Shown piece after piece: positions 2,247 through 60,713 of a DNA stretch of 64,000 bases. The stretch is from Symbiodinium sp. CCMP2592. Its lineage: Eukaryota; Sar; Dinophyceae; Suessiales; Symbiodiniaceae. The translations under genes and the position numbers were made by a program. A model generated the notes under the pieces. That model was not told the origin of the DNA and did not search any database. It was given only the letters and a program-made list of their open reading frames with translations. Where the stretch lies: the NCBI GenBank assembly GCA_905221615.1, contig CAJNDT010000966.1, forward strand, positions 43,739 to 107,738. The letters run 5' to 3'. Each line of letters begins with the position of its first letter. Positions within the stretch are counted from its first letter, which is position 1.

Positions 2247-3875
2247 CTAACAAGGCGGGCCGATGGGGACACAAATTGAAGGGAAGTCATCTTGTCGACC
2301 ATCCACACGAGGATTCTTCCTCGAAGATGCGTTGAAACAGATCTCCGCTCCCTCTCCCGGGAGCCACGTGGCGACGTCGACCCCCCAGTACTCGTAGCCC
2401 TTCTTTTCCAGCCAAGCCACTTCTGCTTTTTGGGAGTTTCCGAGCCCTTCTGAGGCTGTGATAAATAGGCGCTCTGCTTCTGGGAGGGAGGCCAGGAACA
2501 AACGCCGCACTTCTCGGCTATACTGGGAGGATCCGTCGCCACGCGGCTCCTGGGAGAGATTGCCGAGGCCTGCCTCCAGCGCTTGCTGGAATTGTGCAGA
2601 CTCCTCAAACTCTTTCTGTTTTTCGTTTATCTTCTCCCTCCGCAGGTTGTCCTCGCCTGCAGATTCGAAGCTGTCCACTTTGCCGTGGCCCACCTGGTTT
2701 TGGAAGAAGTAGACCTCCAGCTGCGCACCGCTGGCGACGGCGATCTCAATGTTTTCCTTCCATTTGGTAAACCACCTGCAGCCCCACGGCTTCTGCTCCC
2801 CGTAGAGCGGTGTGCACCAGCAGCTGCCGGGCAAGCCCTCATCTTCAGGGATGCTGTCGCACTTGCCAAAGTCGTCCGTGCCCTCCGGGAGGAAAACGAC
2901 CGCGGCACTCACCTGGCCGTCGCGGCTCTGAGAGACCAGTGACTCCCAGGCCCCTGCGTATTTCCCCGGCCAGCTGGCCACGCAAGGGCGGCCACGCGGC
3001 CAGCTGATCACCGAGCCTTCGAATCGGATCGTTCGGTTGCTAATCTCGCAGCAGGCTTCCTTAAGCTCTCGTTTCAACTCTTTCTTCTGTTCTGAGTCCA
3101 GCTCCTCCGGAAACACGATATTCAAACAGAAGAGCATGGCAAAAATAAAAACCGAAAGCCCGACTATCCATGGCGTCCAATAGTATCCTAGTGAGGCGTG
3201 CTGAGCCGTCATAGCGCCCAAAGCCAGCAAAGCAAGGAGACATGCAAACAGGAAGGCAAGACGGAAGAAGACTTCATACTTCCCCAAAAAGAAGGTGCTG
3301 CGGTCGTCTCCTGCAACCGAAGTATGAATATTGAATGCCCAAGTGATGCAGCAGCACAAGGGTACTGTTGCCCCGGCCAGCAGCATGGACGCAACGTCGC
3401 TCTCGGGCGGAATGACTGCGCAAACGAGAAGGAGCGCTAACAGGATTGCGACGAAAGGCCCGAGACACTTCAACGTATGCCATGCCTTTTCGTTTCGCTT
3501 CTTGGTGGCGGCTTCTTCGATCATAGTGTCAATCCGTTCCTCTGCCTCCTTGCGGCGCTTTGCCTCGCGGGCCAATTCCCGTGCCTCGGCTCTGTCGCGG
3601 CCTTTGCACCGTTGAGAAAAGGCTCCGAAGTCCACGGAAGCTTGCAAAGATGCGCCTCCTGCAGCCTCGCAGCTGCCCTTCACCTCCGGGCTTTCGCGCA
3701 GGCGAAGCTGGATCAAGGCCTCCACTTCAGACTCGGGGCCACTTGAAGTCGAAAAAGCACTCACCTCCGTCACTCCGACGTCGCAGGACTTCTGGGGATA
3801 TATGACACACCAGTCGCCATGAAAAGCCACCTCAACGGGTGTCTGGAGGTCGTTCGTGACGGACGCCGTGGCCAT
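2247..3875 (-). CDS. Paralogue A: four-pass membrane protein of unknown function, uninterrupted
   Basis: Encodes 542 aa from the ATG at 3875; a longer frame would need a GTG start, and copy B begins at the equivalent ATG. Residues about 92-130 form a charged, probably helical stretch. Four hydrophobic segments follow at about 137-155, 161-180, 203-221 and 235-254. The C-terminal half (about 281-542) is soluble, rich in Trp, Cys and Gly, with a C-W-C-T-P-L-Y-G...G-C-R-W-F cluster and a predicted helical Gln/Glu-rich part. I do not recognise a named family. Copy B at 7395-9703 is about 80-90% identical over the C-terminal half and carries five introns at positions where A is continuous. Homology continues about 40 nt upstream of the ATG and again at 4231-4288, so the pair arose by DNA duplication and A is not obviously a retrocopy. 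Confidence 0.8.
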   Translation of the reverse strand: MATASVTNDLQTPVEVAFHGDWCVIYPQKSCDVGVTEVSAFSTSSGPESEVEALIQLRLRESPEVKGSCEAAGGASLQASVDFGAFSQRCKGRDRAEARELAREAKRRKEAEERIDTMIEEAATKKRNEKAWHTLKCLGPFVAILLALLLVCAVIPPESDVASMLLAGATVPLCCCITWAFNIHTSVAGDDRSTFFLGKYEVFFRLAFLFACLLALLALGAMTAQHASLGYYWTPWIVGLSVFIFAMLFCLNIVFPEELDSEQKKELKRELKEACCEISNRTIRFEGSVISWPRGRPCVASWPGKYAGAWESLVSQSRDGQVSAAVVFLPEGTDDFGKCDSIPEDEGLPGSCWCTPLYGEQKPWGCRWFTKWKENIEIAVASGAQLEVYFFQNQVGHGKVDSFESAGEDNLRREKINEKQKEFEESAQFQQALEAGLGNLSQEPRGDGSSQYSREVRRLFLASLPEAERLFITASEGLGNSQKAEVAWLEKKGYEYWGVDVATWLPGEGAEICFNASSRKNPRVDGRQDDFPSICVPIGPPC

Positions 3876-6963: not shown

Positions 6964-7076
6964 CTAGGATGCCCAACAACCTAGGAATAAAAAGGGCTCC
7001 CTTGTTGGTGTTGGGTAACTTCTATAAGGAACCTAGGACTACAAAAAGGGAATAAAGGTACTACTGGGCATCCTAG
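6964..7076. repeat. F4 inverted-repeat element
   Basis: CTAGGATGCCCAACAACCTA at the start and TACTGGGCATCCTAG at the end. The inner marks GTTGGGTAACTT and AGGAACCTAGGACTACAAAA are common to five further copies. Confidence 0.8.
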
Positions 7077-7394: not shown

Positions 7395-9703
7395 CTAGCA
7401 AGCCGGATCGATGGGAACACAAACTGAAGGGCAGTCATCCTGTGGACCACACGCTTGTGGCTTCGAAGAACTTGGGACGCAAAACTCGACTCCTTCTCCG
7501 GGGAGCCAGGTGGCGACGTCCACGGCCCAGTACTGGTAGCCCTGCTTTTCCAGCCAAGCCACTTCGGCTTTTTGGGAGTTGCCCAAGCCTTCTGAAACCG
7601 TGATAAACTCGCGCTCTGCTTCTGGGAGGGAGGCCAGGAACAAACGTCGCACTTCTCGGCTATACTGGGAGGATCCGTCGCCACGCGGCTCCTGGGAGAG
7701 ATTGCCGAGGCCTGCCTCCAGCGCTTGCTGGAATTGTGGAGACTGCTCGAACTCTTTCTGCTTTTGGTTCACCTTCTCTCTCCGCAAGTTGCCCTCGCCT
7801 GCAGATTCGAAGCTCTCCACTTTGCCGTGGCCCACCTGGCCTTGAAAGAAGTAGACCTCCAGCTGTGCACCGCTTGCGACTGCGACCTCGATGTTTTCCT
7901 TCCATTTGGTAAACCACCTGCAGCCCCACGGCTTCCGCTCCCCGTAGAGCGGTGTGCACCAGCAGCTGCCGGGCAAGCCCTCATCTTCAGGGATGCTGTC
8001 GCACTTGCCAAAGTCGTCCGTGCCCTCCGGGAGGAAGACGACCGCGGCACTCACCTGGCCGTCGCGGCTCTGGGAGACCAGTGACTCCCAGGCCCCTGCG
8101 TACTTCCCCGGCCAGCTGGCCACGCAAGGGCGGCCGCGCGGCCAGCTGATCACCGAGCCTTCGAATCGGATCGTTCGGTTGCCTAGGTGCTTGTTAAGGG
8201 ATTTAACTTAGGATATTTAATAAGGCAACCATATTATTTACTAAAGATCCCTACTATGGTAACTTAAATTGAGTTCCTTACCTCAATAAGGTATTATGAT
8301 TGTTAATATCTTATTATTCTCTATAGATCCTTACTATGGGAATTCCTCAACAAGAGCCCAGTTACTGACGTTGGTTTCGGCTGCTCTCAGCTCAAGATCC
8401 TTGATTTGCTGCTGCCCAGCGCCCAAGTCCATTGAATTGGTGTAGCCATCCCAGAAACAAAAGATCCCACAACCTAGGTTCTCGTTAAGGAATTTGATTT
8501 AAGTTACCATAGTAGGGATCTACAGTAAATAACATGGTTTCCTAATTCTGGTAACCTAATTCAACCCTTAACAAGAACCCAGGAACATCCCACAGGCCAA
8601 ATGATAGTGGCGGTCCACCAGTATCCTTCCAGGGCATGTTGGGCCGTCATGGCCTGGGCTTTAGAGTAACCTTGGAGAAAACAGTATAGACTTATAGTTC
8701 ATATAGGTTCCCGGTAAGTAACAGGTCCCACAAAGTATTAAAGTATCATACTCCGAAGCCCAGTGGCGGAGAAGGCCAGCAGAGCGAGGAGACCCACTAG
8801 CCGAAGGCCAACACGCGTGCAGAATCGATACTTTCCAAGTCGGAAATCGGTGTCTTCATCTTTTCCTAGGTTGGCCCTGAAAATCAGAACAACATTTCAT
8901 AAACAAAAATCTTAAGTGCAATAAGAGAAATTCGCAAAATTTCCAAAAGGCCTACCTAGTTGCCAGCATAAACGCCCAGAAGGCTGATACAGCAGCACAG
9001 AGGCACGGTGGCACTGGCCAGCAGTGCGGCTGCAACGGCGCTCTCGGGTGGGATGGCCACGCAAAGAAGGATGAGGGCTAATGGGAGGCCTGAAACAATT
9101 CCGATTCGTCTAACTACATACCATGCTTCTTGATTCCGTATCTTGGTAGCGGCTTCATGGATCATAGCATTCGTCCGCTGCTGGGCTTCTTCTCTTCTCT
9201 TTCCTTCACGGGCCAGCTCTCGTGCCTCGGCTCGGTCGCGGCCTTTGCACCGTTGTGAAAAAGCTCCGAAGTCCACGGAAACTTGCAAGGATGCGCCTCC
9301 TGAAGCATTGCAGCTGCCCGTCACCTCCGGGCTTTCGCGCAGCCGAACCTGGATCAAGGCCTCCGAAGCTTCCACAGAGCAGGACATCTTGGGATACACC
9401 ACCTTCCACTCCTCACCTCAGGAGCTGAACACCCTAGCCCCCAAAAAGCTTAACCTTTCCCAATCATGGTAGGATTTGTCGGAGCCCCAAAAGGTTAAAG
9501 GCTACCTAGTCAGCTACTAGCTACTTGTGGGGCATCATGGGGAACTAAAGGTTAACCTTTTTGGATATATAGGGATTAACTATACAGGGGCTATACTAGC
9601 GAAAAATGTTAAAGGTTACCTACTCGACTACTAGGACTAAGTCACTCCGAAATTTGACTTCCATGGCTGCTTGCAGGTCGTTCGTGACGGAAACCGCGGC
9701 CAT
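7395..9703 (-). CDS. Paralogue B: four-pass membrane protein with five introner-like introns
   Basis: Paralogue of the gene at 2247-3875, split by five insertions. The model has six exons: 9703-9646, 9416-8964, 8865-8768, 8653-8587, 8473-8366 and 8182-7395. They join in frame to 523 aa plus stop, against 542 aa in A. The ATG at 9703 is equivalent to A's ATG. Introns 1, 4 and 5 are GT-AG; introns 2 and 3 need GC donors to stay in frame. From G-Y-W-W to the S-N of S-N-R-T-I the spliced B protein has 51 residues, exactly as in A. After intron 5 the joined codons read AGC AAC CGA ACG, identical to A. The C-terminal exon is an uninterrupted 788 nt ending in TAG. Function unknown. The intron 2 donor is the weakest part: a GT eight bases later exists but leaves a stop in frame. 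Confidence 0.8.
8183..8365 (-). mobile_element. F10 introner-like element = intron 5 of paralogue B
   Basis: Donor A|GTAAC, acceptor CACCTAG|GCAAC. The flanking GTAAC/GCAAC pair is a target duplication differing by one base. Terminal inverted repeats are TGGGCTCTTGTTGAGG and CCTTAACAAGCACCTAG. Length is 183 nt with an internal partial repeat of CCATAGTARGGATCT. Splicing restores S-N-R-T exactly as in paralogue A. Confidence 0.85.
8474..8586 (-). mobile_element. F10 introner-like element = intron 4 of paralogue B
   Basis: Donor GGAT|GTTCC, acceptor AACCTAG|GTTGTG, 113 nt. Inverted ends CCTGGGTTCTTGTTAAGG and CCTTAACGAGAACCTAGG. A direct repeat TGTGGGAT[G/C]TT flanks it. Same family as intron 5. 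Confidence 0.85.
8654..8767 (-). mobile_element. Inverted-repeat insertion = intron 3 of paralogue B
   Basis: A 114-nt insertion between a duplicated GCC. The ends ACTGGGCTT and AAAGCCCAG are inverted. Excision with a GC donor (TCC|GCCACT) and CCCAG|GCC acceptor restores S-A-M-T-A, matching A-M-T-A of paralogue A. Not F10; no second copy was seen in this window. Confidence 0.7.
8866..8963 (-). mobile_element. Inverted-repeat insertion = intron 2 of paralogue B
   Basis: A 98-nt unit with inverted ends ACTAGGTAGGCC and GGCCAACCTAG and an internal pyrimidine run TTTTCAG. Similar ends occur in the JmjC gene intron near 21.41-21.50 kb. The best in-frame model uses donor G|GCAACT and acceptor CCTAG|GAAAAG. 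Confidence 0.6.
9417..9645 (-). mobile_element. Two F8-like units = intron 1 of paralogue B
   Basis: Donor A|GTGAC, acceptor CTGAG|GTGAG, 229 nt, with GTGAC/GTGAG as flanking direct repeat. It contains two F8-like units in tandem, each with CTAGTAG...GTAGG[C/T]..CCTTTAA and a GGTTAA[C/G]CTTT arm. This looks like a second insertion into or beside the first. Confidence 0.65.
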
Positions 9704-10033: not shown

Positions 10034-10500
10034 TTCTTGTCATGATTAAGGTGTCTGCAGAGCAGGGAAAGCTTGCAGGCTCTTATGACGCATATTCAGT
10101 ACAGCCTATGAGATTTAAGAAGTATTGCAGGGCCCACTACACAACCCAAAAGCCCAAAAACCAATTCTCTCTAGGTATGTCCAGAGTACTATAGGATGAC
10201 TTAGGCTCTCTGGGAAAGGTCGCAATGTGCTCGTAAGCCCATGAACGCACCCTGGCCAGGTTTGGGGTTGGGAGCTTAGGGAAAGTTTAGGGTCTATCCC
10301 GTGCTCACAGTTTGGGAGGGTCTGTATGACTTTCAGCTTTGTTTACATCTGTCTAAAGGGTTTTCTGTAAAGTGTCCTTGTTCAAGGTTTGGGGTTTCCA
10401 GTTTTGGGTTTGGGCCACCGTTTGAGGTTCAACGTGAGGGCAGTAGGGTGTTAAAGCGTCTGTGCCTGACTTCTCCGCATGCGAAACTTGCGTGAATTCC

Positions 10501-10616
10501 TACGGTTGATGATACAAATCCTGCATTACCCATAATAAGCCATAATACGGAATATACCATCAATCCCATAATTTAGGGTCCTTTAAGGTAATGCAGGATT
10601 TATATCATCAACCGTA
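10501..10616. repeat. F1 inverted-repeat element
   Basis: Ends TACGGTTGATGATACAAATC and GATTTATATCATCAACCGTA, with CCTGCATTACC next to them and an interior AATTTAGGGTCCTTTAAGG. A complete copy of the commonest family in the window. Confidence 0.85.
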
Positions 10617-14531: not shown

Positions 14532-15404
14532 TCAAGCGATCCTTATTATGGGGACCTCAACATAAGGTGCCCCTTGGTTTCGGAAACTCCTATTTGGGGT
14601 TGGGCTTCTGAATGATTCAGGGCTTACCTTGGCCCCCCTAAGAACCTATATTTTCGGAGATAAAGAAACCAAAATGAGGTTCAGCAGAAAGTGAAAACGT
14701 AGGTTGTTTAGTTTTTAGGTAGGATTAAGGCTTACAGAGTTTCGGAGTTTTAAAGCCATTGAAGCTTTAGACCTTGCCTTAAGTCTTCGGGGTTTTCGTC
14801 CTGAGCTTCTCAGCACTGTGCGGTTGACGCTCGCAGTAATGCAATTCGGTAAGCCCTGAGCCACCCTATACACGTCTTCCTCTGTAACAGTCTGTAAATT
14901 CCGAACCCCAAACCCGACGAACACCTGTCGATCCCATACAGAAACGCAAATGACAATCGCTATTATTATAAGCCCGAAACACTGCACCCTGGACTATAAC
15001 CTCCCGAACCTCTAAACCCTAATCCCTTAACCCAAAACCCCTCTATAGAACCCTTATAAATCCCATTGAAGGAACCCTTATGGATCCCTTTAAAAGAACT
15101 CCAAAACCCCTACCACTCAGATAAGTGGCTTCAGCCCCTTGGAGGATTTTTGGCCCATAGAGCCTATAGTGCTTGATCCTCGGATGTCTTCAGGGTTTTG
15201 GGTAACTTTATATGCAACCTAGGACTACAAAAAGGCAACAAGGGTATTACTGGGCATCCTGGTAGGGATGCTATCAGTATTTAGGGGTTCCTGTACCGGT
15301 TCCGTTCAAGGGATTCTGTATATTATTGTTTTGGAGGGTGCGCGCTTCCTAAGGGTGCTAAAGGGGTTCTATATGGCTACTACAAGGGTTCCTTTACTTT
15401 GTGC

Positions 15405-15512
15405 TCTTATACATATACATACAGCGCATACATAAACAAATATATAGATATATATTTGTATAATACGATATAGTATTTGTGCATATACACATATATATAT
15501 ATATATATATAT

Positions 15513-15543
<31 letters not shown>

Positions 15544-15640
15544 TCTATATATACGCATAAAAATATGATATACTTTTACAGATCTAGATCGATAGCTGGT
15601 GCTTTAGGGAGGCGGAGGACGGTGTGTGTGTGTGTGTGTG
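15405..15640. repeat. (AT)n and (GT)n microsatellites
   Basis: Two pure (AT) blocks between 15489 and 15543 and a GTGTGTGTGTGTGTGTGTGTG run at about 15622-15640. Confidence 0.85.
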
Positions 15641-17111
15641 TAAACAAGGCATCCTCGAACCAAAGAGTGAGTATACGCTTAAGCTTGCTGCTGAAGCTGC
15701 AGTTGGGGGGTGTGCATTTGTGCTTAGGATAGGTGTGGCTCGAAGGCTTCCAGAGGATGTGATAGGACCCTCTAAAATTCGAAAGGCTTCTTAGCCAGAG
15801 TTTCACCTCATTAGTATTACCCGCTGAGGATCCACCGGAGCTCGCGAGCGGCAAAGAGCCCTTCCTTGGCAGCATCCAAAGTGTTTGGGGGCGTAGGCTT
15901 TGTTTTGGGGTTTAGGGTTTAGGCTTAGGGGCGTAAGTTTGCTTTGGGGTTTAGGGTGTAGGGCTTAGGGTTGAGGCAAGTGTTTGGGGCATCGGGCGTG
16001 ATTTTTCAAGGCCTTGTAAGGTTTTGTAAGGGTGTTGGCTTGAGAGGGCTTCCGTTTTAACTATACCCCCCCCTTAGAACCATAACAAAAATACTATTTC
16101 TATTTTTCTCTTAGGTTAGTTAAAACAAAGGAGGTCTTTGGCAAGTCGGGCTTCTGGCTCGAGGGTTTATTTCGGTTTAAGGCGACGTTTAGGGATCAGG
16201 GTTTGAAGCTTTTGAAGGTCTGGGGAGTCTAGGGTTTAGGGTTAAGGTTTAGGGTTTAGGGATCAGGGTTTAGCCCGGGGTTTAGGGTTTAGGTGTTTGG
16301 GAGCTTCGGGGTCTGACTTCGATGATCACTCTTCTGTTCGCGCAGATCATCCTGCAACATGCTACCCTGGAGTACATTACGTTATACTGGGCTCTCCTGC
16401 TCCACATTGGGCTATACACTGTGCCAAGCTCGGCACCACAGCTGGGCACCTATTTATAAGGTGAGCCAGGGACCCATCTTACACCTGACGAGCTTGGCAG
16501 CTGCTAACAGACAGAACCCGCCTCTATCAAAGATGGACTTCTCTGCAGAAGGCCCCGAATGCCCAGCCGGAAATCACCCCTAAGATCCCGTCCCAAAGCC
16601 CTAGAATAAGACCTTAAAGTTAAAGACGCGGGACTCCTAATCCTCATGCCGAAAGCCTTGCTGGCTCAAACTCTGAAATCCGCCACCCCTAAGAAGGAAA
16701 GCCCGAAACTCTTCAATTCGAACACCCTAGATCCCGGACCGTCCCGGCTAAATCTCTACAAAAGCTAGCCCTTTGCCGTAATATCAGGGCCTTGATAATT
16801 ATTTATTAAAATAGGGCTTGTAGCCCTTAAACGGAACCCCCGAAATAGTGTTGGTAAGTATTCAGCTCCCTACAGCACCAACCCTAAGCCCTAGACCCTA
16901 AAACCCTAACCCCTCTCCCCTAAACCCCTAAACCCTACCAGGTGCAAGCCAATCCTATACCACCCTTAGCACCATTATAAATTTAGTCCTTTAGTATTGT
17001 CTTGGGTTTTATCTGAACAAGAATTTAAAAGTACTTCCTAAGGAGACGGTAGAAAAGGAGCCCTAAGTCTCCTTAAAGGAGCCCGAAGTCTCCGATAATC
17101 CCTAAGGAGAC

Positions 17112-17245
17112 TACTTGGAGGGCTTGGACTCAGTAACTGGTTATTTTAAGGACTTATAAGTACCATAACCCCAATTAGGGTCCCTTTTCGGGTACTTATA
17201 AGTCTACTTCCTACCTACTTACTAAGTCCCCCGACCCTCCAAGTA
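17112..17245. repeat. F2 inverted-repeat element
   Basis: TACTTGGAGGGCTTGGACTC to GTCCCCCGACCCTCCAAGTA. Minus-strand sequence directly upstream of it (17246-17298) reads as a short exon-like frame with V-D-D-Q-R-L-R-S-F-L-E-A-L-P after a CCCAG. Confidence 0.7.
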
Positions 17246-17644
17246 TAGAATCGTGGGCAGAGCTTCAAGGAAGGACCGGAGCCGCTGGTCGTCCACTCCT
17301 GGGCAACACACGAAGGGCATGTGGGTTGTTTAGGGTTCTATAGAGGTTCCTTTACAGGGATCCATAACGGTTCTATCGGTTTAGGGTTTAGGGTAGGGAT
17401 CTATAAAGTTTAGGGTTTAGTGGTTGGTGGTGAGGGTTTGGGGGATTTGAGCGCTTTAGATTTACGGATTTGAGGGCATTGAGCTCTTGATTTGGGGGGG
17501 GGCCTAAAAAAACTGTTCATGGCGTTGGCCTTTACATTGGGGCTTGGTTACTTCCGAGTGTTGTTTTCGGGAGCTGGGGCCGTTAACGACCCGGTTCCAC
17601 AAGTACCGACAGCCTCTAGTCTCTCATTACTATCGACCTACAAT

Positions 17645-17756
17645 CTAGGATGCTCAACAACCTACATATCAAAAGGGCTCCCTTTTTGGTATTTGGTAAC
17701 TTTATAAGGAACCCAGGACTACAAAACGGGAATAAGGGTACTACCGGGCATCCTAG
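17645..17756. repeat. F4 inverted-repeat element
   Basis: CTAGGATGCTCAACAACC to ACCGGGCATCCTAG, with TTTGGTAACTTTATAAGGAAC inside. Confidence 0.8.
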
Positions 17757-17851
17757 CAATCCTATGGGCAACCTGGATCCGAAAGACGGGCGGCAGCAAA
17801 GCCCTGATACTGCCTAGCTGTAGCACCCTAAACCCCAGGCTACCAAAACCG

Positions 17852-17975
17852 TACTTGGAGGGGCAGGGGACTTAGTAAGTAGGTTATAAGTAGGGCTATA
17901 ATTGGGGTAACTCCATTTAGGGTACTTATCACTCTACTTAAAAACTACTGACTAAGTCCCCTGCCCCTCCAAGTA
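17852..17975. repeat. F2 inverted-repeat element, best preserved
   Basis: TACTTGGAGGGGCAGGGGAC and GTCCCCTGCCCCTCCAAGTA are perfectly inverted; AGTAAGTAGGTTATAAGTAG follows the left end. A useful reference copy for the family. Confidence 0.85.
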
Positions 17976-18729
17976 AATCCTAAACCCTAAACGTCCAAGC
18001 GTCTATGTAGAGCGGTAAATTCGTGGAGGCTTTCGGAAGCCTCAAAGAAAAGGCCGATCAGAAACACAACTGTGCCTGTAATGGCTTCTGCGCTCATCTG
18101 CAATATTCATAACTTCACTCTGGATTTCCAACCAAAGCCCTACACCAATCAAGTAGTGAAGCCTCGACCCGAGTAGTTCCAAAGCCCAGGCTCGTTCTCC
18201 AAGTACCTCTAATCTTCCGACTAGCGAAGCATCATCCACCTGGTGTTAGAGTTTAAGGCTTGGGGTTCAAGAGTCTGTTGCAACGACTTCTATCTTGACT
18301 GCAACGTTCTTAACATGAAGGTTGAGTCTTCAGGATTAGTTTTGCTGTTCTTGCCTTTTCTGTTTATTCGAGATTTTGTGGCCTAACATTGCTGTTGGCC
18401 GTAGGGCGTATGAGCTTAAGCTTTTTGGGGGTGCCGGATCTTATTTGGCTTTTGAGAGCCGAGGTAAGGTGCCAGTCTCTACACTCTCACCCACCCGCAC
18501 TTAAAGCCTCACAGGGATCGGGTTTTTTGGGGGGGCAGAAGAAGGGCGCAGAACCATGTGTTCAACCATCCATACAACACCTATCAGCACCCTTTCAAAA
18601 CCCCACGGGTTCCAACAAACCTGTTAAACCCTAAGCCCTTCATTCCTCAACCCTCATGACCCTTTACATCCGTAAATCCCTGCACAGAATTTCGGCTTTG
18701 ACCGGGCCTCGCTCTCCTGAACTTAAAGG

Positions 18730-18818
18730 GGTGGTTGTCAAAATTAAGGTCCCTTTTGGGGTACCCTAAAGATTAGGTATTAGGGACCCCAAAAGGGATC
18801 CTAATTTTGACAACCACC
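18730..18818. repeat. F7 inverted-repeat element
   Basis: GGTGGTTGTCAAAATTAAGG and CCTAATTTTGACAACCACC, with CCCTTTTGGGGTACCC between. At 89 bp it is among the shortest elements. Confidence 0.85.
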
Positions 18819-19178
18819 AAATGCACACCTAACCCTTTTAACCTTAAGGAATCAGTCCTTCATTGACTCCTTTCAGGAGCCCTTACTAAAGTTCATACAG
18901 AAACCCCAAACCCCCAACGCTCTTCAAACTCTGTAAACATCCTGTAGCACCCTACAGCCCTCCCTCGAGGGAGTTCAAAACCCTTGCATCTAGGCCCCCA
19001 AGGGACACTGGCTAGTAAAGACCACTTTGACACAATCCAGAATTGTCGCTTTGAGGAAGTATATGAACGGCATCGCTTTACCCTCCCTGAACTCTAATTA
19101 AACCTCAAACCCCTATAGATCCCTTTAAAGGAACCCGAAACCCTAAACCCTATAGATCCCTTTAACCCCCAGCTGAAC

Positions 19179-20711
19179 CCTTATTGGCCTCGCTTTTCCT
19201 GCGCAGCCGCCCGGCCAGCTGCGCTGCCAGGAGCTGCGCTTCGGCTACGGCAGCCTCTGGAGGCTTGAATCAAGCTCGAGAATTCTTTTACTTTAGTTTT
19301 GGCGGGACCTTTTCCAACTGCACTAAGCTAGATAAGAAGGGTAAAGGCGGTATGAGGTTTAGGTGCGCCTTTGCAGCTCCGTTCGTAATAATCATAATAC
19401 CTCGAATCGCTATTAAAATTGTCAAGGCCACATAACAGCTCCCAAGCCAATCTCAAACCGCCTCCATGCAAAACCCAAAACCCTAAACCTACTAAGGCAG
19501 GGTTTGGTCTGCTGCCTCTGCAGCTCCGTTCGGGAAGTCCTTGTCATCCAAAGCTCGAAGCATTGGCCAGAAAGAAGGCGGCAAGGGCTCATTGGCTTCC
19601 TGAAGAGTAGGTCTCCGGGTTCAGGCTTTCAAGATGTAAATATTATAGCACCTTCAAAGTGAGCCCTAAACCCTATAAAGCCTTAAGCCACCAGGACCTA
19701 GAAAGCTGAAGCCTTTCCCTCCTACAAAAACCTTAAAGGAACAAGAAGGCAAATTGGTTTAGGGCTGAGGGTTCAAGCTTTAAACTTACTTAAGGTTTAG
19801 GGTTTTGAAACCCCCAAAGTAAGCCCACAGGACTTGTAAACCCTTAAGCTCGCAGGCCCTCCTGACCTCAACAACCCAAAACCCTCAATCCCTCAAAGAA
19901 AAGCCTAAGGAGAGCCTCAAAGCCTCGAAACCTCAAAAACCCCAAAACCATCCACCCGAAAACTCTTCGGAAGGTATCTTTCTTGTAGGGGCAGGGGACT
20001 TGGTAAGTAGAGTTATTATAAGTTTAAGTACCCTAAATGGAGTTACCCCCAATTATAACCCTACTTATAACCTACTTACTACGTCCCCTGCCCCTCCAAG
20101 TAGGGTCTATGTTATGGAGAAACCCTCAGAGGGAATCTCAAGGCCTGAACCCGCAAGTCCCCAAACACCAAGAACCCTTAAACCAGACCTATAGGTTTAG
20201 GGTTTAGGGTTTAGGGGTTTAGGGTTTAGGGTATACTCTCCATTGTAGTTCCTTTGTTTGGTTAACCAAAATCTCTATTTTAGGATCCTAACCATAAAAC
20301 TGGATAACCCAAAAAAGGAACTGCAATGGAGACTATAGGTAGAGCCTGCAACTCTTCAGAACCTTTTCCAACTCTTACAGGGAGAACCCGCTAAGGAACC
20401 CTAAACCCCTATCACCCCCCCCCCCCCCCCACAACTTCATATAGGGAGAACCCTTCAAGGAACCCTAAACCCCTATCAAACCCCCCAAACTCTTTTAGGG
20501 AGAACCCTTTGAGGAACCTTTCAGCCCTATCAAAACCCATCCCAAAGAGAGCCTCAAGACCCTGCTCCGTCAGCCGAGTCTGCGTGGCGTCGATGCGGTT
20601 GGCCAGGGAAAGGTCGAAAAGCTCGGGTGGGTCGGAGTCCTGTACCTTCAGGGCTTTTGGGGGTTTAGGGTCTAGGGTATGTATGCGTGTCCAAACACAG
20701 CATATCCCATA

Positions 20712-20742
<31 letters not shown>

Positions 20743-21760
20743 GTGATTATACATACGATCTACAATACATAGGTGTGTATGTACGTATATGTCACTGTGG
20801 GGAAGGCCTGACCTCTAGCCAGGCAGCCAAAAGGCCAGCAAAGGTAAAGTGCCCTCTGTAGACGCTCATCGTGACGTGCAGGGAGGATTCCTGACCGGCG
20901 CTTCGAGCATAGTGAGGAACCCCTTGGGGCAAATACAGAACATCTCCCGGCAGCAGCGTGACGTTCTCCATCACCCTCACTTTGTCAGGTTCTAGGAGCG
21001 TCCAAGTCTTCTCTCCTTGTTGCTGAGCCACGAAGACGTCATGTCGATCAGCATGTGGTGCCAGACCCTGCGAATCGGGTGGAGTCAGGTAGACGTTGAA
21101 GTCTCCTGAGACGCCGAAGCACGCCCAGAGGGCATGATGCAAAGAGTGCAGCTCCGCCGTTGCAGCATGGGCCTTGTTAAAAATGAAGGTCCAGTTCCTG
21201 CCGTGCAGCGCAAGATCCTCGGAAGAGCGTAGGGGCTGCTCTCGCAGAATCTGCGCCACGTACTTGTGATCTTCTAGCCTCTCAAGCGAGCCAGCTAATG
21301 TCCGGCAGATAGCCACCGACCAGAAATTTACCGAGCTTCCACTCCAAATTTGTGTTGCTGTAGCTCCGAAGGCCACTCGCTGGCTGACATCGTCGAGCAC
21401 AGCTCCTAGGTGGGCCCTTTGAAAGCATCTGAAAATATTCCTAAATAGGGTCCTATTAAGCCCAATAAGGGAAAATCTAAAATGTCCCAAAGGCCTAGTT
21501 ACCTAGATAAGTAGAACCAAAACCCTACATATATACAGATATATATATACACACACACACAAATACTACAAATACCTTGCAAAAAATGCTGGGCTCTGTG
21601 CCAAATGTCCCAAAGGCCTACCTAATCTATAAACCTATAACCCTAAACCCTAAGCCCTAAACGTTCTAAGGCTCTGTGCTCCCCGTATGAACGCTTTCGC
21701 TTCGATCGCGCCTCCTCGTGGAGGTCCGCATCGAACTCCGACACCAGACTGAGACCTCGG
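19179..21760 (-). CDS. JmjC/cupin 2-oxoglutarate oxygenase (ribosomal-oxygenase-like), multi-exon
   Basis: The largest exon (21405-20813) has a cupin core: G-L-A-P-H-A-D (metal His and Asp) about 55 residues before G-D-V-L-Y-L-P-Q-G-V-P-H (second metal His), then S-L-H-V-T-M-S. This order fits the NO66/MINA53 group of Fe(II)/2-oxoglutarate JmjC hydroxylases, which act on ribosomal proteins or histones. Exons in frame: 21760 or 21748 to 21680; a 20-nt exon 21595-21576; 21405-20813; 20645-20537; and about 19256-19179 (E-A-A-V-A-E-A-Q-L-L-A-A-Q-L). Junctions: GC-AG (21679-21596), then GT-AG (21575-21406, 20812-20646, 20536-19257). A continuous frame into 21490 would start at TTG inside an intron and is not believed. 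The 5' and 3' ends are not located. Family call is fairly firm; substrate unknown. Confidence 0.65.
19984..20102. repeat. F2 element inside the JmjC gene intron
   Basis: TGTAGGGGCAGGGGACTTGG to CCTGCCCCTCCAAGTA, with a decayed left end. Confidence 0.7.
20231..20340. repeat. F9 element inside the JmjC gene intron
   Basis: GTATACTCTCCATTGTAGTT to AACTGCAATGGAGACTATAG. Second copy of the 6704 element, preceded by six TTTAGGG words. Confidence 0.75.
20716..20745. repeat. (AT)n microsatellite
   Basis: GTGTGTATATATATATATAT run in the intron between two JmjC-gene exons. Confidence 0.8.
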
Positions 21761-21827
21761 CTGTTCTTGGAGGCTCCCTTAAAGGGATCTGGGCTCCTTT
21801 AAAGGGATCTATAGAGTTTGATTTATG

Positions 21828-21900: not shown

Positions 21901-22400
21901 TTGGAGGCTCCCTTAAAATCATTCTGGCTGTTCCTTCTGAAGTAGAGACGACTCTAATTACAAATAATCAAGTGTGCCGTAAAACCCTAAACCCTAAACC
22001 TAAACCCTAAACCCAGCTCAGAATCAATCTTCCACGGTAAATGGCAAACGTAGCTCAGAGGCTTTGGCATGGAGCCAGTGAGCACCAAACTTCTGCTTTA
22101 AGAAATCGTCCTCCGCAACCTGTGAAAGAACGGATATACGATAGTTCAGGATTCGTTTACCGGTTCTTTAAGGGCTTTTCTCATAGGACGTTTAAGGTTA
22201 CCATACTAGGGTTCAATAGCAGATAAAAGGGTGCCACATGATGGTAACTTGAACCAAACTCTAAACCGTAAACCCCAAACCCCTAAACCCTAAACCCTAA
22301 ACTCCTCAAGAAGAGCCCAGCAACACCGACCAGTTTGGACACAGGACCGGGAGACTTCTCCCGGAGGCTCCCGCTCTCCCCTCCTTCCCGGTATCCTTAG

Positions 22401-22531
22401 CTTTGGTTAGTAGGGAATGGAGGAATGGGGTACAATTATAACTACTATTTACTACTATATACCCTAAACCCTAAACCCTAAACCGTAATAACTACTATTG
22501 CTACCATTCTTCCATTCCCTACTAACCAAAG
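22401..22531. repeat. F11 inverted-repeat element
   Basis: CTTTGGTTAGTAGGGAATGG and CCATTCCCTACTAACCAAAG are perfectly inverted. The interior carries ACTACTATTTACTACTATAT and four CCCTAAA words. Confidence 0.8.
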
Positions 22532-22619
22532 GTAAGTATCGTCTCGGGACGTGCCCGCGCAGCCTGCCAGGCACGGGAACCGCTCCGAAGGCAGCCTGGT
22601 AAAGTGGGGCCGTTACTGT

Positions 22620-23309: not shown

Positions 23310-23396
23310 CGTTGTTTTTGGCTCCCTATAAATCGCGGCCCAACGACGGAGTGGAGCGCCGAAAACAAAGCACGGAAGTTCAAAGCAACATTCACA

Positions 23397-23499
23397 ACGG
23401 TTGATGATATAAATCCTGCATTACCCATTATAAGGAATAGACCATAGTTCCCATAGTTTGGGGTCCTTCAGGTATTGAAGGATTTATATCATCAACCGA
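23397..23499. repeat. F1 inverted-repeat element
   Basis: ACGGTTGATGATATAAATCC to GGATTTATATCATCAACCG, 103 bp, internal CCCATAGTTTGGGGTCC. Confidence 0.85.
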
Positions 23500-23675
23500 A
23501 GTACCCAGAATCCGGCAAAGCCTTAAACCCTCAACCGGACGAGGACAAGATAACTCAAGCTTGTCCTTTGGACTCGCATGCTCAGAAGGCCTGATGCTGA
23601 GGACCTTTGTAAGGTTCCGGTTTCCAACCCCTGATTCGCTTTTAGAGTTGATGTTTATACAAGGTGGGGATTTCC

Positions 23676-28499: not shown

Positions 28500-28749
28500 T
28501 TTACACGGAAAAAATTATGAAACAGTTGCATTTACCAAGCTAGACCCTCTAGCTTACTGCCATTGTTAAGAAGTACCCCTCTGAAACACCAAACCCTAAA
28601 CCCTGCGCCTAAACCCTATACCCGAAACCCAAACCCTGTGCCTATTGGTGCATAGGCGCCGTGGACGCTCCTGCAAACTTTATCCGCCAAATCGTCCCTT
28701 GAGCCTAAATTGCCGAATGATTCTTTCGGGGTTTTGGAACGAATTAATC

Positions 28750-32006: not shown

Positions 32007-35000
32007 CACGGAGCTGTTCGCTTGACGAACTTCCTCCAGGGCCTTCTGCATGGCTTGCTTTAAGGGCTCCTTGTCGGGTATCATGGGGAACTAAAGGTTA
32101 ACCTGTTTGGTTATATAGGGATTATCTAGGGGCTATACTATCCAAAAAGGTCACCTGCTCGACTACTAGGAAGGGCTCCATCAACAGTTTTTCATGGCGT
32201 TCTACAAGGTCGTTCCAGAATTCTTTTGGGTGTTTCAGGGTTATTCTCGGCCTATTCTGTAAGGGATTGTATGTGCTGCTTACGCCTAGGAGGGATTTGG
32301 ACGGCTTGGCGTTCTCTGTCCTAACTTTTCGTCAAGCTCTTTACCTATGTTTTGTTTAGGGGCTGCAATGCAAGCTGTTTGAATTCGCCTTAACAGGGTT
32401 GTCAACCTCAAGGAACTTCCACCGGGGTCGTCGTAGCCTGAACTCTGAATCCCACCTGAATCAGAACACCCTTAGTCCTAGAACCCCAAAATCTAAAGCT
32501 GAGAACTGACTTGATGGTGCGGCTCAGGGCTTACATGGAGAAGTTTGGGGCTTAAGGGCTTCGGGAGGGCTTTTGAAACGCCTTCGTCAAGCAGATCCCG
32601 TTAGACCCAATATAGGAAGTATGCACAGACAAAGCCTGTCCAGTCGTCTCCCTTCTTCAGCAACCCACCCAGAAAAAGCTGTAAGTTTGCAGTGTACTAA
32701 ACCAAGAAAGGAAAGAGTTCAGGCTCTCACGTTGGCGATCTGAGTAGTTCATGTCTGCTTCGACATACGGTTGATAGTATAAATCCTGCACTACCCAAAA
32801 TAAGGAATATACCATTATTCCCATAGCTTAGGGTCCTTAAGCTAATGCAGGATTTATATCATCAACCGTATCCCTTGGCTTTATGGATCTATAGATCTTC
32901 TTGGCGGCTTTCGGCCTCTTTGTCCAGAAACCTTGCGTTATGAACTAGGATGCCCAGGAACCTAGGAATACAAAGGACTCCCTTTTGGTATTGGGTAACT
33001 TTAATTTATAAGGAACCTAGGACTACAAAAAGGGAATAAGGGTACTGCTGGGCATCCTAGTGAAGGTGTGGAGGTAGGTTGTTTGGGAGGTTTGCAATTA
33101 GGATGTCGTAGGGCTCTGAAGCTGCCGGGTTGCGGTGGGAATGAAGGGCTTAAGCTTCAGAACAAACCCTAAACCCTAATAAACCCTACACCCTGGCACA
33201 CCCTAAACCCTAAACCGGAGCTTTAAGAGTTGAGGGCCCTGCAGTCAAGCATGCGAGGCTGAGTCAAGAACAAAATGCGCGAAGTCAGGATTTAGGTTTC
33301 ACGTTGCGGGCCTAATCATGCCTTCAACAACAGGCGAGTCGAACACAAAGTGTGTACGTGAGTTTCGATGCCAACATTCGATCACCCAAAGAGGCGAGAT
33401 GATGGACACAAGAAGTAACAAAACCGCCAACTCGTAAAGACCACAAGAGATAGCCATCTTGAAGTTGCTTGCAGCATTTAATTGGGGCTACCCCTAAACC
33501 CCAAACCCCTAAACCCTGAATGTTGCTCCTCGCCTGTGCCCCAACTTCTCCGATGCGGCTGTTGAAACTCAGATCGACCTTCACAGCATCGGACTTAGTC
33601 AGTAGATCTTTTATAGAGCTATAAGTACCACAACCCAAATTTAAACCCCGCTCAGGATACTCATATGTCTACCTATTACCCCGTACGGCAAGGGTGGGGC
33701 TATTATCAAGGGCCTTATGTACCTGTCTTATAAGCATTATTCAACTGTTACTGAGTAAGGGCGCCCACTTGTCGAGTATCCTGGCGAACTAAACCTCTGG
33801 AAGTATATTGGGACTATCTAGGGATCACAGAACCCCAAAAACGTTAAAGGGTACTGCTCTACTGCTAGCGGGATGAATGAAATCCAGTCTGTCGGCTGCG
33901 CACGGCCCATTCTCATGAGACTTTCTGCGAATCATTCGATCTGTTTGTATCGCATTGCAATCTATCATTATATATTTCATCGCCGTCTAACAGGTGCAAG
34001 TATGTTCTGCTAAGAATTATCACAGTATGTGGTATAGAGAACTAACACATACAACGCCTTCTGCACTTTCCCACTTGGAGGAGTTAGACGAATCTTTTGG
34101 AAGATGCCATATTGCCGAGGCACTCCTTATCCGAAAGACCCCCCCACCACAAAATGAGTAGTCCTGTAAATCAGGTCCCTTTTCAGTCGCCAAAACAGTA
34201 CGGCACCCCCAAAAGGACCCTAATTTAAAGAACTACCTACATCGGGGTTTCCGAAACTAGGGGACCCTAATGTAGTACCCTAAGTAGTAGGATCCTGATT
34301 ATAAGGAGCCCCGACATAAGGTACCCCGAATTTCCGGAAACTCTAAACCCTAAACCCTTTATAGAAATCCTTATAATGGATCCCTTTAAGGAACCCTTAA
34401 CAAGATCCCTTTGAAGAAACTCCAACCCCCCCCCAATTTTCGGAAGCTCCCACATGAAAGTTCCTTTAAGCCCACGATCCCTGCAGAGGCAGCCCGAGAT
34501 CCCAAAACGGTTTATGCCTTCCTTTGAAATAGGGTACCATTAGGGTTCCTTGTAAGGGTTGCTGTAAGGGTACTATTAGGGTTCCTTTAAAGGGTTGCTA
34601 TAAGGGAAGTATTCGGGTTGCTGTAAAGGGTTCTATAAGGGGTTTAGAGTTTCCGAAAATTTGGGGGTACCTTAGTTTGGAGCTCCTTTTTATGAGGATC
34701 CTAGCATTTCGGGCACGGCAATATTAGGGTCCCCTATTTTCGGAAACCCCCATGTCGAGACAGCCTCTATTTCAAAGGTACACGGGGCTCTGTGGAGAAC
34801 GTGAAGCTGCGAGCCTTTTAACCCGAACATAGCCTAAAACCCTGAACTCGAAGACCAGAGCACGCCGAACCTTGACGATTGAGCTGTTGATGGCGATGGC
34901 CCCTGCAAGAGCCTCTCCAGTCTCTACGATGGTCGATGGTTCAAAGGGGTATGATGGCCCTGCTGGAGAAGAATACAACCATGATCTCGGGGGTTTCTTA

Positions 35001-41000: not shown

Positions 41001-44000
41001 CTGGAAACCTCGCCTCCGCACCCTTAAGAGCTCTACAGAACCCTTTTAGGACCCCTTTAAACTTTAAAGGAACCCAAATCTACTTACAAGGAGCTCTATA
41101 TAGAACCATCTTAATAAATCCGTGAGTGTCAAACGCAAAGTCATACCAGTATTTCACCAGCAGCTGCAACATTCCATCCCTCAACCCCTAAACCCTAACC
41201 CCCAAACCCCAAACAAAGCCCCTGAGCCCTGAACTCTGAAACCCTAAACCCCTAACCCCCCACACGCCTAAACCCCGCAAACCCCAATCCCCTTAACCCC
41301 ACACCCCTAGTAATCCCTACACGCCTAGCCTAAACCCCTAAACCCCCAAACCCCTAAGCCCTTAAACCCTAAACCCCTAAACACCCAAACCCTAAACCTA
41401 AACCCCCTACATCCCTAAACCCCCGAACCCCAAGGCCCGTAAACCCCCAAACCCCTAAGCCTTGAACGCTCGATTCCAGGAAGAAACATTAAACACATTA
41501 CATTTGGGGGAAGAACTTTGTTTTCCCCAATATGGTTAGAACCCTAAAACCTTGAACGCTCGACTCAAGGAACCCTGTAGATCCCCTTCTAGGAACCCTA
41601 TAGATGCCCTTGAAGGAACCCTGTAGATCCCCTTAAAGGAGCCCTACTACGCCCCTATGTTCGACTCCTGGAGGTTGATACTGGTCACCGACACGTTGAC
41701 CTCGAGAGCCTCTGCCAGGGCCTGCCGGGGGCGTTAGCAGGGCTCTGGGAGCAGCTGAAGGGTTTTGGGGGTTTAGGGTATGGAGTTTAGGGTTTAGGGG
41801 TTAGGGGGTTTAGGGACTTAGGGGTGTAGGGTTTAGGGGTTTTGGGTTTATACAAGGGTTTAGGGTTTAGGGGCTTGGGGGTTGAGGGTTTAAGGTTTAA
41901 GGTTTAAAGCTTAGGGTTAGAGTTTGGGGCCCTCCGTGTCAGATCCAATCTTCAAGCAATGGCATAAGTAAGGACCAGACCAGGGGAGAGGCGCACCTGT
42001 GCACCCTCTCTGACACCAAAACGGATGCCAATCCGGACACGCCCAGAAATACAGCGAGCCATTGGGGGTTCCATGTTGGCACAGGGGCATACAACATCAC
42101 CTACCACTTGCTCCAAACTTCCAAGCCCAATCTACCCAATACCCACAACCCTACACACCTAAATCCAGAACCCGAAACCCTAAACCCCTCTATATAACCC
42201 TTATAGATCCCTTTAAAGGAACCTCTAAACCCTAAGCCCAAAGGTAGACACTTCGAGAGCTTGCAAGCAGTAAAGCGACCTGCAAGGTTTAGGGTAGAGC
42301 GGTTTAGAAGCTTAAGTGGTTCGCGTTTAGGGCATGGTAGGTTTGGGGTTTAGGTAATTTAAGGCAACCCAACACCCTGAGGCACCAACACCCACTGACC
42401 CTAACCTCAACCCCGGAAGCCCTAAACACTACACCTCTGCAGCTTCTACTTGGAGGGGCAGGGGACTTAGCAAGTAGGTTATAAGTAGAGTTATAAGTAC
42501 CCTAAATGGAGTTACCCCAATTCTAAGCCTACTTATAACCTGCCTACTAAGTCCCCTGGCCCTCAAGTAGATGCTGCATCCAAACCACAATTCCCTCGAC
42601 CCCCCCAAGACCTCAGGTGACTTTCAAAAGCCAAGCTCGCAAACCTCCAGGCTGAAACCGCTCAATCCTTTAGGGTTTAGGGTTTAGGGTTTAGAGTTAG
42701 AGCACCACCACTGCCGCAGACCCGAAACCTGTGCAGATTTTGTTTTATAGAGCCCTGACATAGCCCCCCCCCCACACAGAACCCTTAAAGTGTTAGGACC
42801 CCAAAAAAGTACCCCAGTGAAAGACCCAGGGCTTCTCGTACAGGGAACCCTTATGTTTATTAATCCCCTTGAAAGGAACCCCTACAACATCCTTACGGTT
42901 GATGGTATAAATCCTGCATGACCCATAATATGGAAGATAATTCCCATAGTTTAGGGTCCTGCAGGATTTCTATCATCAACCGTTAGCACCCGAAGAAGGC
43001 CTGTGAAGCGGTGCCAATGTGCTGGAAGCCCCTTTGGATGGTGGTGACCGCACGATTTTCTTGCAGCGCCCGCGCGACGGCCTGCGTTGCGAGCTGCGAG
43101 GCTCTAGGTTTGGTAGATGGTTTTCGGGCTCCGATGGTGCCGTGGGGTTACTAGAGGGATGGTACGACGACGACGACGACTACTACTACTGCTGCTACTA
43201 CTAATGCTGCTAAGTGCGAGGGTTGCTGACCCTGAGCCCTAAAACCCTAAACCCGCAATTAAGCCCTATCCATCTACAGCAGACCTTAGCACGCTCCGTC
43301 CTCCAGGCGTGGCGCATGCCTGGGTGGGCTGCTCATCTCCTGCCAGAGGCCGCCTAAATTCACCGAAGCGTAGGGTTGATGATATAAATCCTGCATTACC
43401 CATAATAAGGAATATGCCAGAACTCCCATATATTCCTTATTATGGGCAATGCAGGATTTATACCATCAACCGTAAGGATCTTAAGGATCTTAAAACCAAA
43501 GCCCGAAAGCCTAAACCCCTAAAGCCTGAACGCAAGGATCGAGATGTAAGGATCCTGAAACCCAAACCCGTAAAGCCTAAACCCCTGAGCCCAAAACCCG
43601 ACCCTAAACGCAAGGATCCTCGTCCTGGGGCATTCCCGAAATCCCCTTCGTATGTTTCGGCGGCGTTTTGGGTCTCTAAGCTTCAATGGAGATTTCGGGC
43701 AAAGCATGGCACAGGGCTGAGAGTCGGCCTTAGAGCCGTTGGATTTATGCTTCATGATGTGCTACAAAGACTTCCTATCACGGTTTGGGGTTTAGGAGTT
43801 TGGGGATTTAGCATGCAGGGTTTAGGGCTTAGGTGTAGCCATGTCATGCTGGATCTTAAGGTACAGTGAAGCTGTTTGCGTTCAGTAGACTCCTTTGTTT
43901 GCCATACGGTGCACTGCACACCGCTCAGGACTAGAATTCTATGACATCACACTCAGATAACACTCTGCTAGTGGTTCACATCCGCAAATGATAGGGTTTT

Positions 44001-58744: not shown

Positions 58745-60713
58745 GTGCGGACAGCTCGGAATGTGGTCCGCGATTTTGGGGATGCTGCCGCTTCTAGTGG
58801 GGGGCTGATCCAGCTTTCCAAATGTAGCGATACAAATGCTGAAAGGGATACTCACCGACTGCTTACGAAGCGATTGCACCTGAGCCTGGAAACATATGTG
58901 CCATTACGCAGTGTGACTCAGAATGGCAACAAGTTGACCATTCTGCACCTCCAAGACTGGATGCGGTTTCTGTTGCAGAAAAACTGCTTTCACATAGTTA
59001 CGGGGCTAGTGCGACCGGACGAGGCTCGACAAGAAGCTATCCTACATCATTTCTGGAAAAACTTCGAGCTTTCACATTCATCTCATCCAATATACGACTT
59101 AGCCCGGCAGGGCAAGGTCGTGCTGGAGCGAACAGCTCCGATACTGTTTCACGGAGATGAAGGGCGTGGCCGCAGAAGACAACCGTTCCTGGTTACAAGT
59201 TGGTCATCAATTCTAGGGCGTGGTACAGCGCCATCTGATCGATTTCGCAAGAAGCATGGTATCCGGAACAAGTTCATCAAACATCGGACAAACTTCATAG
59301 GGCACTCGTTTACGAACAGGTTTCTCCAGGTAGACATGGTGGCACAAATGTAAACATTTTGTTGTTGATTTTGTACTGAAGCATCGAGGTAGCCTAAGTG
59401 GCGATATACCGATAGACGGGGATAGTCGGAATGGGTCACATGATGTTGTTTTTAGCTGTATACAGATCCCAACGAACCAATCTAACCTGTATAAACAAAG
59501 CTCCCCTGAACTGTTGTTTTTCAGAACTCAAATCATTAAAGCCCAGGCTGGATGGCCAAAGAAAGCTTACGAGGAGGAGAGTGCCTTCGACAGGCTGCTT
59601 CGATGTTGCAAGCGTGACAACGATGTCATGCTCCACGAGGGTCTGGTGGACAAGAGGACAGGCAAGAGATACTTTGCCATTGTATTGGCCGTGGTGGGGG
59701 ACTGGCAATGGCTGGTGAAAGCGGGCAAACTTGCCCGCAGCTACAACCACGTTGTGAAGAATACCGCCAAACAAGCAAAGCATCCTGAAGGCATTTGCCA
59801 TCTGTGCCAAGCAGGACAGAAAGACCAGCCGTTTGAAACGTTTCAGACTCGAAGCCCAGGCTGGCTGCAAACGTTTTGTGTGCAGGATCCGTTTCTGGAT
59901 GCGCGAACACCCCTGGCAACCTTGCCACACATGCCGGGCCAAGCGGCCACGCTGTTCAAGTATGATGTTTTTCACACATGCCATTTGGGCATATGCAAGG
60001 CTTTGGTTGGTTCGGGATTGGCTTTACTCAGCCTGACTTTCCCAGGCAGAGGCAAAGATGCACGCATGGAACAAGTGTCAAACAACTTCATGGAATGGTG
60101 CAAGAACTCGGGGCGTCAACCTTTGCTGACCAAACTGACAAAGGAGTCTATATTGTGGGATACGAATGCTGATTATCCCGTGGGCTCATGGTACAAAGCC
60201 TCGCTTTCCACGACCCTCTGCGAGTACATCGAGGATGTGACGAAGGACAAAACTTTTCAAGATGTGCTTCTGATGAAATGCAGTGAGGCTGTGCAGGCCT
60301 TGAACAAATTTCTCACTGGGCTCTACGAGGCTGATGTGTTTTTGACCAGCGAGCAGGCCTATACTTTGGGAGAGTACGGACTGCTGTTTCTGCGCCGATA
60401 TTCTTTTTGTGCAGGGGAGGCCGCTCGACAAGGCAGGTGTTTGTTTTTAATTCTTCCGAAGATGCACTGCCTTCAGCATATTTGCCTACAAGACTTAGTG
60501 TTGGCTTCTCGACGCTTTTCTCTTGTGCTCAATCCGCTGTGCTTCAGCGTCCAGCTTTGTGAAGATTACGTAGGACGCAACTCTCGTGCGAGCCGCCGAG
60601 TTCATCCGACTACCTGCACTTTGCGTGTTGCGCAACGCCACCTGCAGCTTGCTTATTCGAAGTACATCGCAGCCGGATATTTGGTGGATGACAGCGCACA
60701 AATGGAGAAGTAG
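58745..60713 (+). CDS. Large unnamed protein, high-copy dinoflagellate family
   Basis: Two exons, 58745(or upstream)-59329 and 59547-60713, joined CAG|GTAGAC...CCCAG|GCTGG in phase 0 (217-nt intron). This joins N-R-F-L-Q to A-G-W-P-K-K-A-Y without gap relative to the family as I recall it. Visible marks: F-L-V-T-S-W-S-S-I-L-G-R-G, F-I-G-H-S-F-T-N-R, a C-x-L-C zinc-knuckle-like pair (G-I-C-H-L-C), H-M-P-G-Q, Y-D-V-F-H-T-C-H-L-G-I-C-K, K-M-H-C-L-Q-H-I-C-L and D-Y-V-G-R-N-S-R-A-S-R-R. I associate this set with very numerous unnamed dinoflagellate proteins; role unknown. Total at least 580 aa. The frame opens at GTG, so an upstream exon probably supplies the start. Confidence 0.7.

Follow-up and report, generated by a model that had tools for sequence, protein, structure and literature searches.

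The 64-kb window, by which we mean the whole 64,000-nucleotide stretch analysed here, carries on its minus strand two nearby paralogues that differ in gene structure. Copy A (2247..3875) is a single open frame of 542 aa. Copy B (9703-7395) comprises six exons: exon 1 (9646..9703), exon 2 (8964..9416), exon 3 (8768..8865), exon 4 (8587..8653), exon 5 (8366..8473) and exon 6 (7395..8182), the last of which encodes the conserved C-terminal domain. Their joins are in frame throughout, giving one frame of 523 codons and a protein of 523 aa, and the insertions between them, introns 1-5, measure 229, 98, 114, 113 and 183 bp, respectively. This reproduces the exon/intron parse of an earlier, sequence-only reading, which had claimed five insertions in copy B, none in copy A, and a single frame across the joined exons; its count of 51 residues between the motifs GYWW and SNRT needs correction to 45 in both proteins, the first motif being GYYW in copy A. 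The neatness of the joins is not independent evidence of splicing, because the frame returns whenever a transposon of any kind is excised along with one copy of its duplication. The joins are, nevertheless, all backed at the residue level by P0001, an uninterrupted 523-aa protein that is 91.4% identical to the joined copy B over residues 1-523 (90% in exons 1-5 and 93% in exon 6). Its only source is lgn-labelled (read as Logan assemblies), with contigs of at most 1807 bp, a size that would be compatible with a transcript origin.

The family of these proteins is large: of 7990 candidates that were scored, 263 matched at an E value of 0.001 or lower, and the best 120 of these matches were used. 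Among these best 120 of the 263 matches for copy A, every named source that gives an organism is Symbiodinium. No relatives of copy A were recovered among viral contigs, and none of 85 pattern matches in bacterial and archaeal genomes was confirmed. The A/B protein shows no Pfam match above the Pfam cut-off and just three PDB matches by sequence (E 0.05-0.07), and searching the PDB with a structure model (pLDDT 87.9) gave nothing at an E value of 0.001 or below. In the model, copy A has a strand-rich N-terminal part, five helices within residues 84-282, which look membrane-spanning, and the conserved C-terminal domain.

Intron anatomy, target duplications and element families

When the opening bases of an intron are set against those of the exon that follows it, a short duplication appears at each insertion of copy B. 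Intron 1 (9417..9645, minus strand like the others; GT-AG) has a GTGA duplication and an element of the form CTTAG...CTGAG; it looks composite, and no extended terminal inverted repeat was found in it, only the outermost bases pairing. Intron 2 (8866..8963; GC-AG) is flanked by GCAA/GAAA and carries CTAGG...CCTAG with an inverted repeat of 10/11, and intron 3 (8654..8767; GC-AG) has GCCA/GCCA and CTGGG...CCCAG with an inverted repeat of 13/15. Intron 4 (8474..8586; GT-AG) combines GTTC/GTTG with CTGGG...CCTAG and an inverted repeat matching in 29/36 columns, and intron 5 (8183..8365; GT-AG) combines GTAA/GCAA with CTGGG...CCTAG and a partial inverted repeat (12/14) that begins 7 nt in. One mismatch each is seen in the duplications of three of the five introns, and all five duplications begin with GT or GC, that is, with a usable donor. 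The flanking duplications of the sequence-only reading hence exist, but all of them are 4 bp long: those given as GTAAC/GCAAC and GTGAC/GTGAG are 4 bp plus one base, and the TGTGGGAT repeat was wrongly taken for a duplication, the real one being the 4-bp sequence that emerges from the base-by-base line-up of the flanks.

For the five B introns alone, taking all four positions, the observed agreement is reached in 2 of 120 permutations. Two further introns, C1 and C5 of a second gene, gene C (see below), were added because relatives' open reading frames (ORFs) fixed their sites; across the resulting seven, positions 1-4 match in 7, 5, 7 and 6 introns and position 5 in 1/7. Positions 2-4 account for 18/21 matches against a permutation mean of 7.3, a value reached in 2 of 5040 permutations, and with the poorly fitting intron C0 of gene C included the figure is 19/24, reached in 4 of 40320. 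At the other flank positions (n = 16), the seventh matches in 4/7 introns and the remainder in 0 to 3. Right after the duplication, element ends of the form CTNRG...CYNAG are found in 7/7 introns, and by sequence all seven have the donor (GT, GC or GA) inside the duplication and the AG acceptor inside the element.

Introns 4 and 5 belong to one family, being 81% identical over 99 bp and lying in opposite orientation. Element positions 6-122 of intron 1 are 82% identical to a partial copy at 32171-32066, the ends of intron 2 recur in gene C intron C1, and intron 3 has no second copy within the 64-kb window. The B introns represent at least two putative element families, one of them in both orientations. 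As one end is CT, whose reverse complement is AG, such an element offers an acceptor in either orientation. Another CT...AG family is represented on the plus strand by three copies that are 83-89% identical: one at 6964..7076 with a GTGA/GTTA duplication, one at 17645..17756, which has an exact CAAT duplication and falls inside gene C but in none of its recognised exons, and one at 32945..33060 with an exact TGAA duplication, likewise outside recognised exons. The CAAT and TGAA duplications imply that CT...AG elements also land on targets unable to supply a donor. When the window was scanned blindly for inverted repeats of 60-400 bp with CT...AG ends, 97 pairs reached 12/14, whereas 20 resampled sequences averaged 4.65; the same scan yielded between 17 and 460 pairs for other terminal dinucleotides, the resampled baseline covering CT...AG only. 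An exact 4-bp duplication accompanies 3 of the 97 pairs, as against 0 to 1 at six shifted positions, and the scan supports little by itself. Two other kinds of repeat were noted in passing: a palindromic repeat with ends like TACGGTTGATGATATAAATCCTGCA near 10498-10615, 23396-23505, 42892-42986 and 43476, which is another short inverted-repeat element, and an inverted-repeat element with ends near ACTTGGAGGGGCAGGGGACTTAGTAAGTAGG at about 17850-17980, 19983-20103 and 17110-17243, several copies of which lie within the gene C span.

Intron sites in relatives and in gene C

Whether the introns were gained or lost was assessed with the protein ORFs of relatives. The two closest of these to bear on the sites, P0147 (162 aa, one of 5 proteins retrieved with exon 2 alone as the query) and P0015, are 88-89% identical to B. 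Each occurs on one contig, the longest being 15,527 bp for both, and from this equality we read them as one gene on one contig, probably of a single relative. P0147 reads through the 5' leader, aligns continuously to B residues 1-92 (89% identity), passing from exon 1 into exon 2 uninterrupted at site 1, and stops at a frameshift, where the relative's copy may be damaged or misassembled. P0015 starts inside the homologous intron 2 (MFSALKGANP-GKDED versus FRANL-GKDED at the same-frame end of B intron 2) and continues to its stop across sites 3, 4 and 5 uninterrupted, at 88% identity to B. Since their ends extend into leader or intron sequence, both are probably raw genomic ORFs and not spliced models. 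A more distant member, P0151, crosses site 2 with about five extra residues. In an automatic tabulation of 88 ena-labelled proteins, the sequence is continuous at sites 1-5 in 76, 19, 87, 87 and 88, respectively, with continuity at site 2 ambiguous in 67/88, the region being gappy; all five sites are continuous in 13/88 ena-labelled proteins and 14/32 others (best 120 of 263 matches). The tabulated entry for P0015 at site 2 was rejected as a misreading of intron read-through.

Going by these frames, introns 1, 3, 4 and 5 seem recent in B, and intron 2 seems older and common to the nearest relative. Gain is simpler than loss, as the relative would otherwise need separate losses on either side of a retained intron 2. 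The claim that the elements were inserted into B draws support from the absence of introns 1, 3, 4 and 5 in the nearest relative's P0147 and P0015 and of all five in paralogue A, and the outgroup-orthologue check that the sequence-only reading had put forward, run here on protein ORFs, favours gain at sites 1, 3, 4 and 5. Its wider contention, that intron gain is caught within one gene, is supported, with the qualification that intron 2 is older than the four introns that look recent.

The same comparisons bear on the opposite history, in which the introns are ancestral, copy A arose as a processed retrocopy, and recombination with cDNA stripped introns 1 and 3-5 from the relative. Copy A is indeed without introns, and cDNA-driven loss is able to delete runs of them. 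We nonetheless consider this history improbable. The relative must have lost introns 1 and 3-5 yet kept intron 2, which takes at least two events, and the introns themselves bear target duplications and transposon-like ends. Full-length members of the family are also common, with 72 of the 88 ena-labelled proteins among the best 120 aligning over at least 85% of B, both ends included, a measure that does not establish a single raw frame. Copies A and B further have 5'-leader sequence in common, and in a scan with the dinoflagellate spliced-leader sequence the top four hits for each length and strand all lie away from A (the best 14-base match, 12/14, is at 28711). No poly-A tract was seen by eye after the stop of copy A. 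Retroposition as such is called rampant in dinoflagellates in a review (PMC11453091), which speaks in favour of a retrocopy. In a tree of the 5' half (49 rows), A falls outside B + P0001 with support of 97/86, a placement whose bearing on a retrocopy origin depends on whether the gene of P0001 has introns. Overall, the probability of a retrogene origin of A is low. Copy A was separately rejected as a stand-in for the pre-insertion state, for the two paralogues parted long ago and have diverged: over the 5' half, A shows 54% identity to B, as against 90% between B and P0001.

A second gene offers a parallel to copy B. Gene C (15100-21770, minus strand, with more exons upstream by reading only) is a MINA/NO66-like JmjC_2 gene with several introns; its exon with the JmjC_2 domain (20795..21403, minus) matches Pfam PF08007 at E 1e-19 and has MINA and NO66 as PDB relatives. 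Two of its minus-strand introns are GA-AG: C1 (21406..21674, 269 bp) with an exact GAGC/GAGC duplication and CTTAG...CCTAG, and C5 (15179..15832, 654 bp) with an exact GATC/GATC duplication and CTCAG...CCGAG. Three relatives' proteins read through the C1 site uninterrupted, namely P0121 (93% identical), P0125 and P0124. The first of these is taken as a raw ORF because its N-terminus shows intron read-through (KGPPRMNSLGLSL versus KGASKNSRGLSL in the window); the lgn-labelled P0124 may be a transcript. Across the C5 site, P0122, the raw status of which is not proven, reads RWIKHYRLYGPK. Intron C0 fits poorly (GATT/GTCT), and no clear duplication was apparent by eye at the gene C introns after WLE and after QGLE. 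Judged from its sequence, gene C repeats the pattern of copy B, with GA-AG introns, exact 4-bp duplications and absence from relatives' ORFs.

A CT...AG element at 22396-22536, which lies upstream of all gene C exons recognised so far, has a 13/14 inverted repeat, an exact duplication (GATA on the minus strand) and TTTAGGG-like repeats; it is possibly a further GA-AG intron. Elsewhere in the window, a 459-aa open frame on the plus strand (59334-60713) has no Pfam match up to E 0.1.

Origin of the introns, splicing and the homogenised tract

We propose that introners have invaded copy B, itself a functioning gene, introns 1 and 3-5 having arrived after the split from the nearest known relative and intron 2 earlier, and put the probability of this reading at roughly 0.88, with splicing and mobility both deduced from the DNA. 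Introners of this kind would be non-autonomous DNA transposons that turn into introns on landing. Each insertion would duplicate 4 bp of its target, and the left duplicate would become the 5' splice site wherever the target, read along the coding strand, starts with GT, GC or GA, with the terminal AG of the element supplying the 3' splice site in whichever orientation it landed. Splicing would then excise one duplicate along with the element and restore the original coding sequence. On this scheme, introns 1, 3, 4 and 5 would have entered B after its split from the nearest known relative, and intron 2 would have come before them, the simplest assumption being that B and A had already separated by then. 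The mobility of the B elements was presumably transposase-driven.

Removal of the B introns from RNA is likely, given that all five duplications begin with a usable donor, that retention of any single intron would cut the protein (to 27, 172, 212, 233 or 271 aa), and that intron 2 is present in two lineages, yet the exons downstream of it are open and about 88% identical. The insertions could alternatively be ordinary unspliced transposons and B a pseudogene, in which case the truncation by any retained intron would be real and the in-frame joins would merely reflect the duplications, frame restoration being automatic for any duplicating insertion. This we regard as even less probable than ancestral introns with a retrocopied A, for the joined exons are fully open and agree closely with P0001 (90% identity over exons 1-5, 93% over exon 6), and intron 2 predates the species split, with the downstream exons conserved afterwards. 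Moreover, 5/5 B duplications begin with GT or GC, as against CAAT and TGAA in 2 of the 3 copies of the other family, which lie outside recognised exons. That B is a chimera of misassembled tandem-copy reads can be dismissed almost entirely: the two paralogues do lie close together and do have a near-identical tract, but P0001 matches B end to end as one protein, and P0147 and P0015 closely match its two ends.

The near-identical tract is itself informative. Comparison of 7395-8182 with 2247-3040 shows that the copies are near-identical where the 3' exon begins, whereas the sequence 5' of that exon has diverged strongly, with the switch exactly at B intron 5. Fourfold-site identity between A and B is 41/44 in the first 89 codons after intron 5 versus 45/77 in exons 1-5 (Fisher p 2.5e-5) and drops again 3'-ward, to 74% in the last 53 codons; for exon 6 as a whole it is 86% versus 58% in exons 1-5. 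In a tree of the 3' exon (50 rows), A groups with B at a support of 86/89, although A/B identity there is 89% versus 93% for B/P0001. Gene conversion halted at the heterologous insert of intron 5 explains the edge of the tract. A possible alternative is that the edge marks a domain border and coincides with the intron by chance, the C-terminal domain being conserved across the whole family.

More speculatively, a single system of CT...AG elements with 4-bp duplications might make splice-ready introns in both orientations at G[T/C/A] targets, with the landing site setting the donor class, and such introns might bar gene conversion between tandem copies; we hold this generalisation to be doubtful as a whole. 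If it were true, a homogenised A/B tract that stops at intron 5 would let the invaded 5' half diverge, and the GT/GC/GA donor class, a dinoflagellate oddity, would simply be set by the landing site.

Intron gain from DNA transposons with co-opted splice sites was reportedly described by Huff et al. in 2016 in Micromonas and Aureococcus, in which the introners are said to differ from those here in duplication length and element sequences. Closer to the present case, the earlier reading's statement that introners are already established in dinoflagellates agrees with the published architecture of Symbiodinium microadriaticum introners, which, according to a figure legend, have 4-bp duplications, inverted repeats, an element-borne 3' splice site and a 5' splice site from the duplication (Gozashti et al., 2022, Fig. 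2B legend; PMC9860276). In architecture, the elements described here share with these the 4-bp duplication, the splice-site sources and, clearly in introns 2, 3 and 4, terminal inverted repeats; they differ in that two gene C introns have GA donors and that introns 1 and 5 have weak inverted repeats. No paper came up in a literature search that paired 'introner' with 'either orientation'. The methods of that PNAS study, however, already allow for insertions in opposite orientation (PMC9860276), and we claim no priority for either-orientation insertion on that account.

Roy et al. (2023), as cited in PMC11453091, found many recent introner introns of several families in dinoflagellates, with gain and loss between species; the present case differs in following one gene, which can be held against a paralogue without introns and the mostly intron-free ORFs of a relative. 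GC or GA donors are frequent in Symbiodiniaceae according to the same review, which puts them at 25-74% (PMC11453091). The introner elements of Amoebophrya likewise possess inverted repeats, and direct repeats of 3-5 nt span their exon/intron borders; most splice motifs in two strains are there given as neither GT-AG nor GC/GA-AG, unlike the seven introns tested here, all of which are G[T/C/A]...AG (Farhat et al., 2021; PMC7789003). By its sequence, then, copy B is a well-ordered further example of a process already published for Symbiodinium (PMC9860276). It provides an ordered series, with one older insertion and four apparently recent ones, for which the mostly empty gene of a relative and a paralogue without introns serve as comparisons, and makes a clean test case for intron origin. 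Gene C, in turn, links GA-AG introns to the same kind of 4-bp duplication. Finally, P0125 and P0126 (both with contigs of 84833), from another species, show an apparent interruption inside the JmjC exon after GEKTW, where the window is continuous, so that intron gain may be scattered among the relatives.
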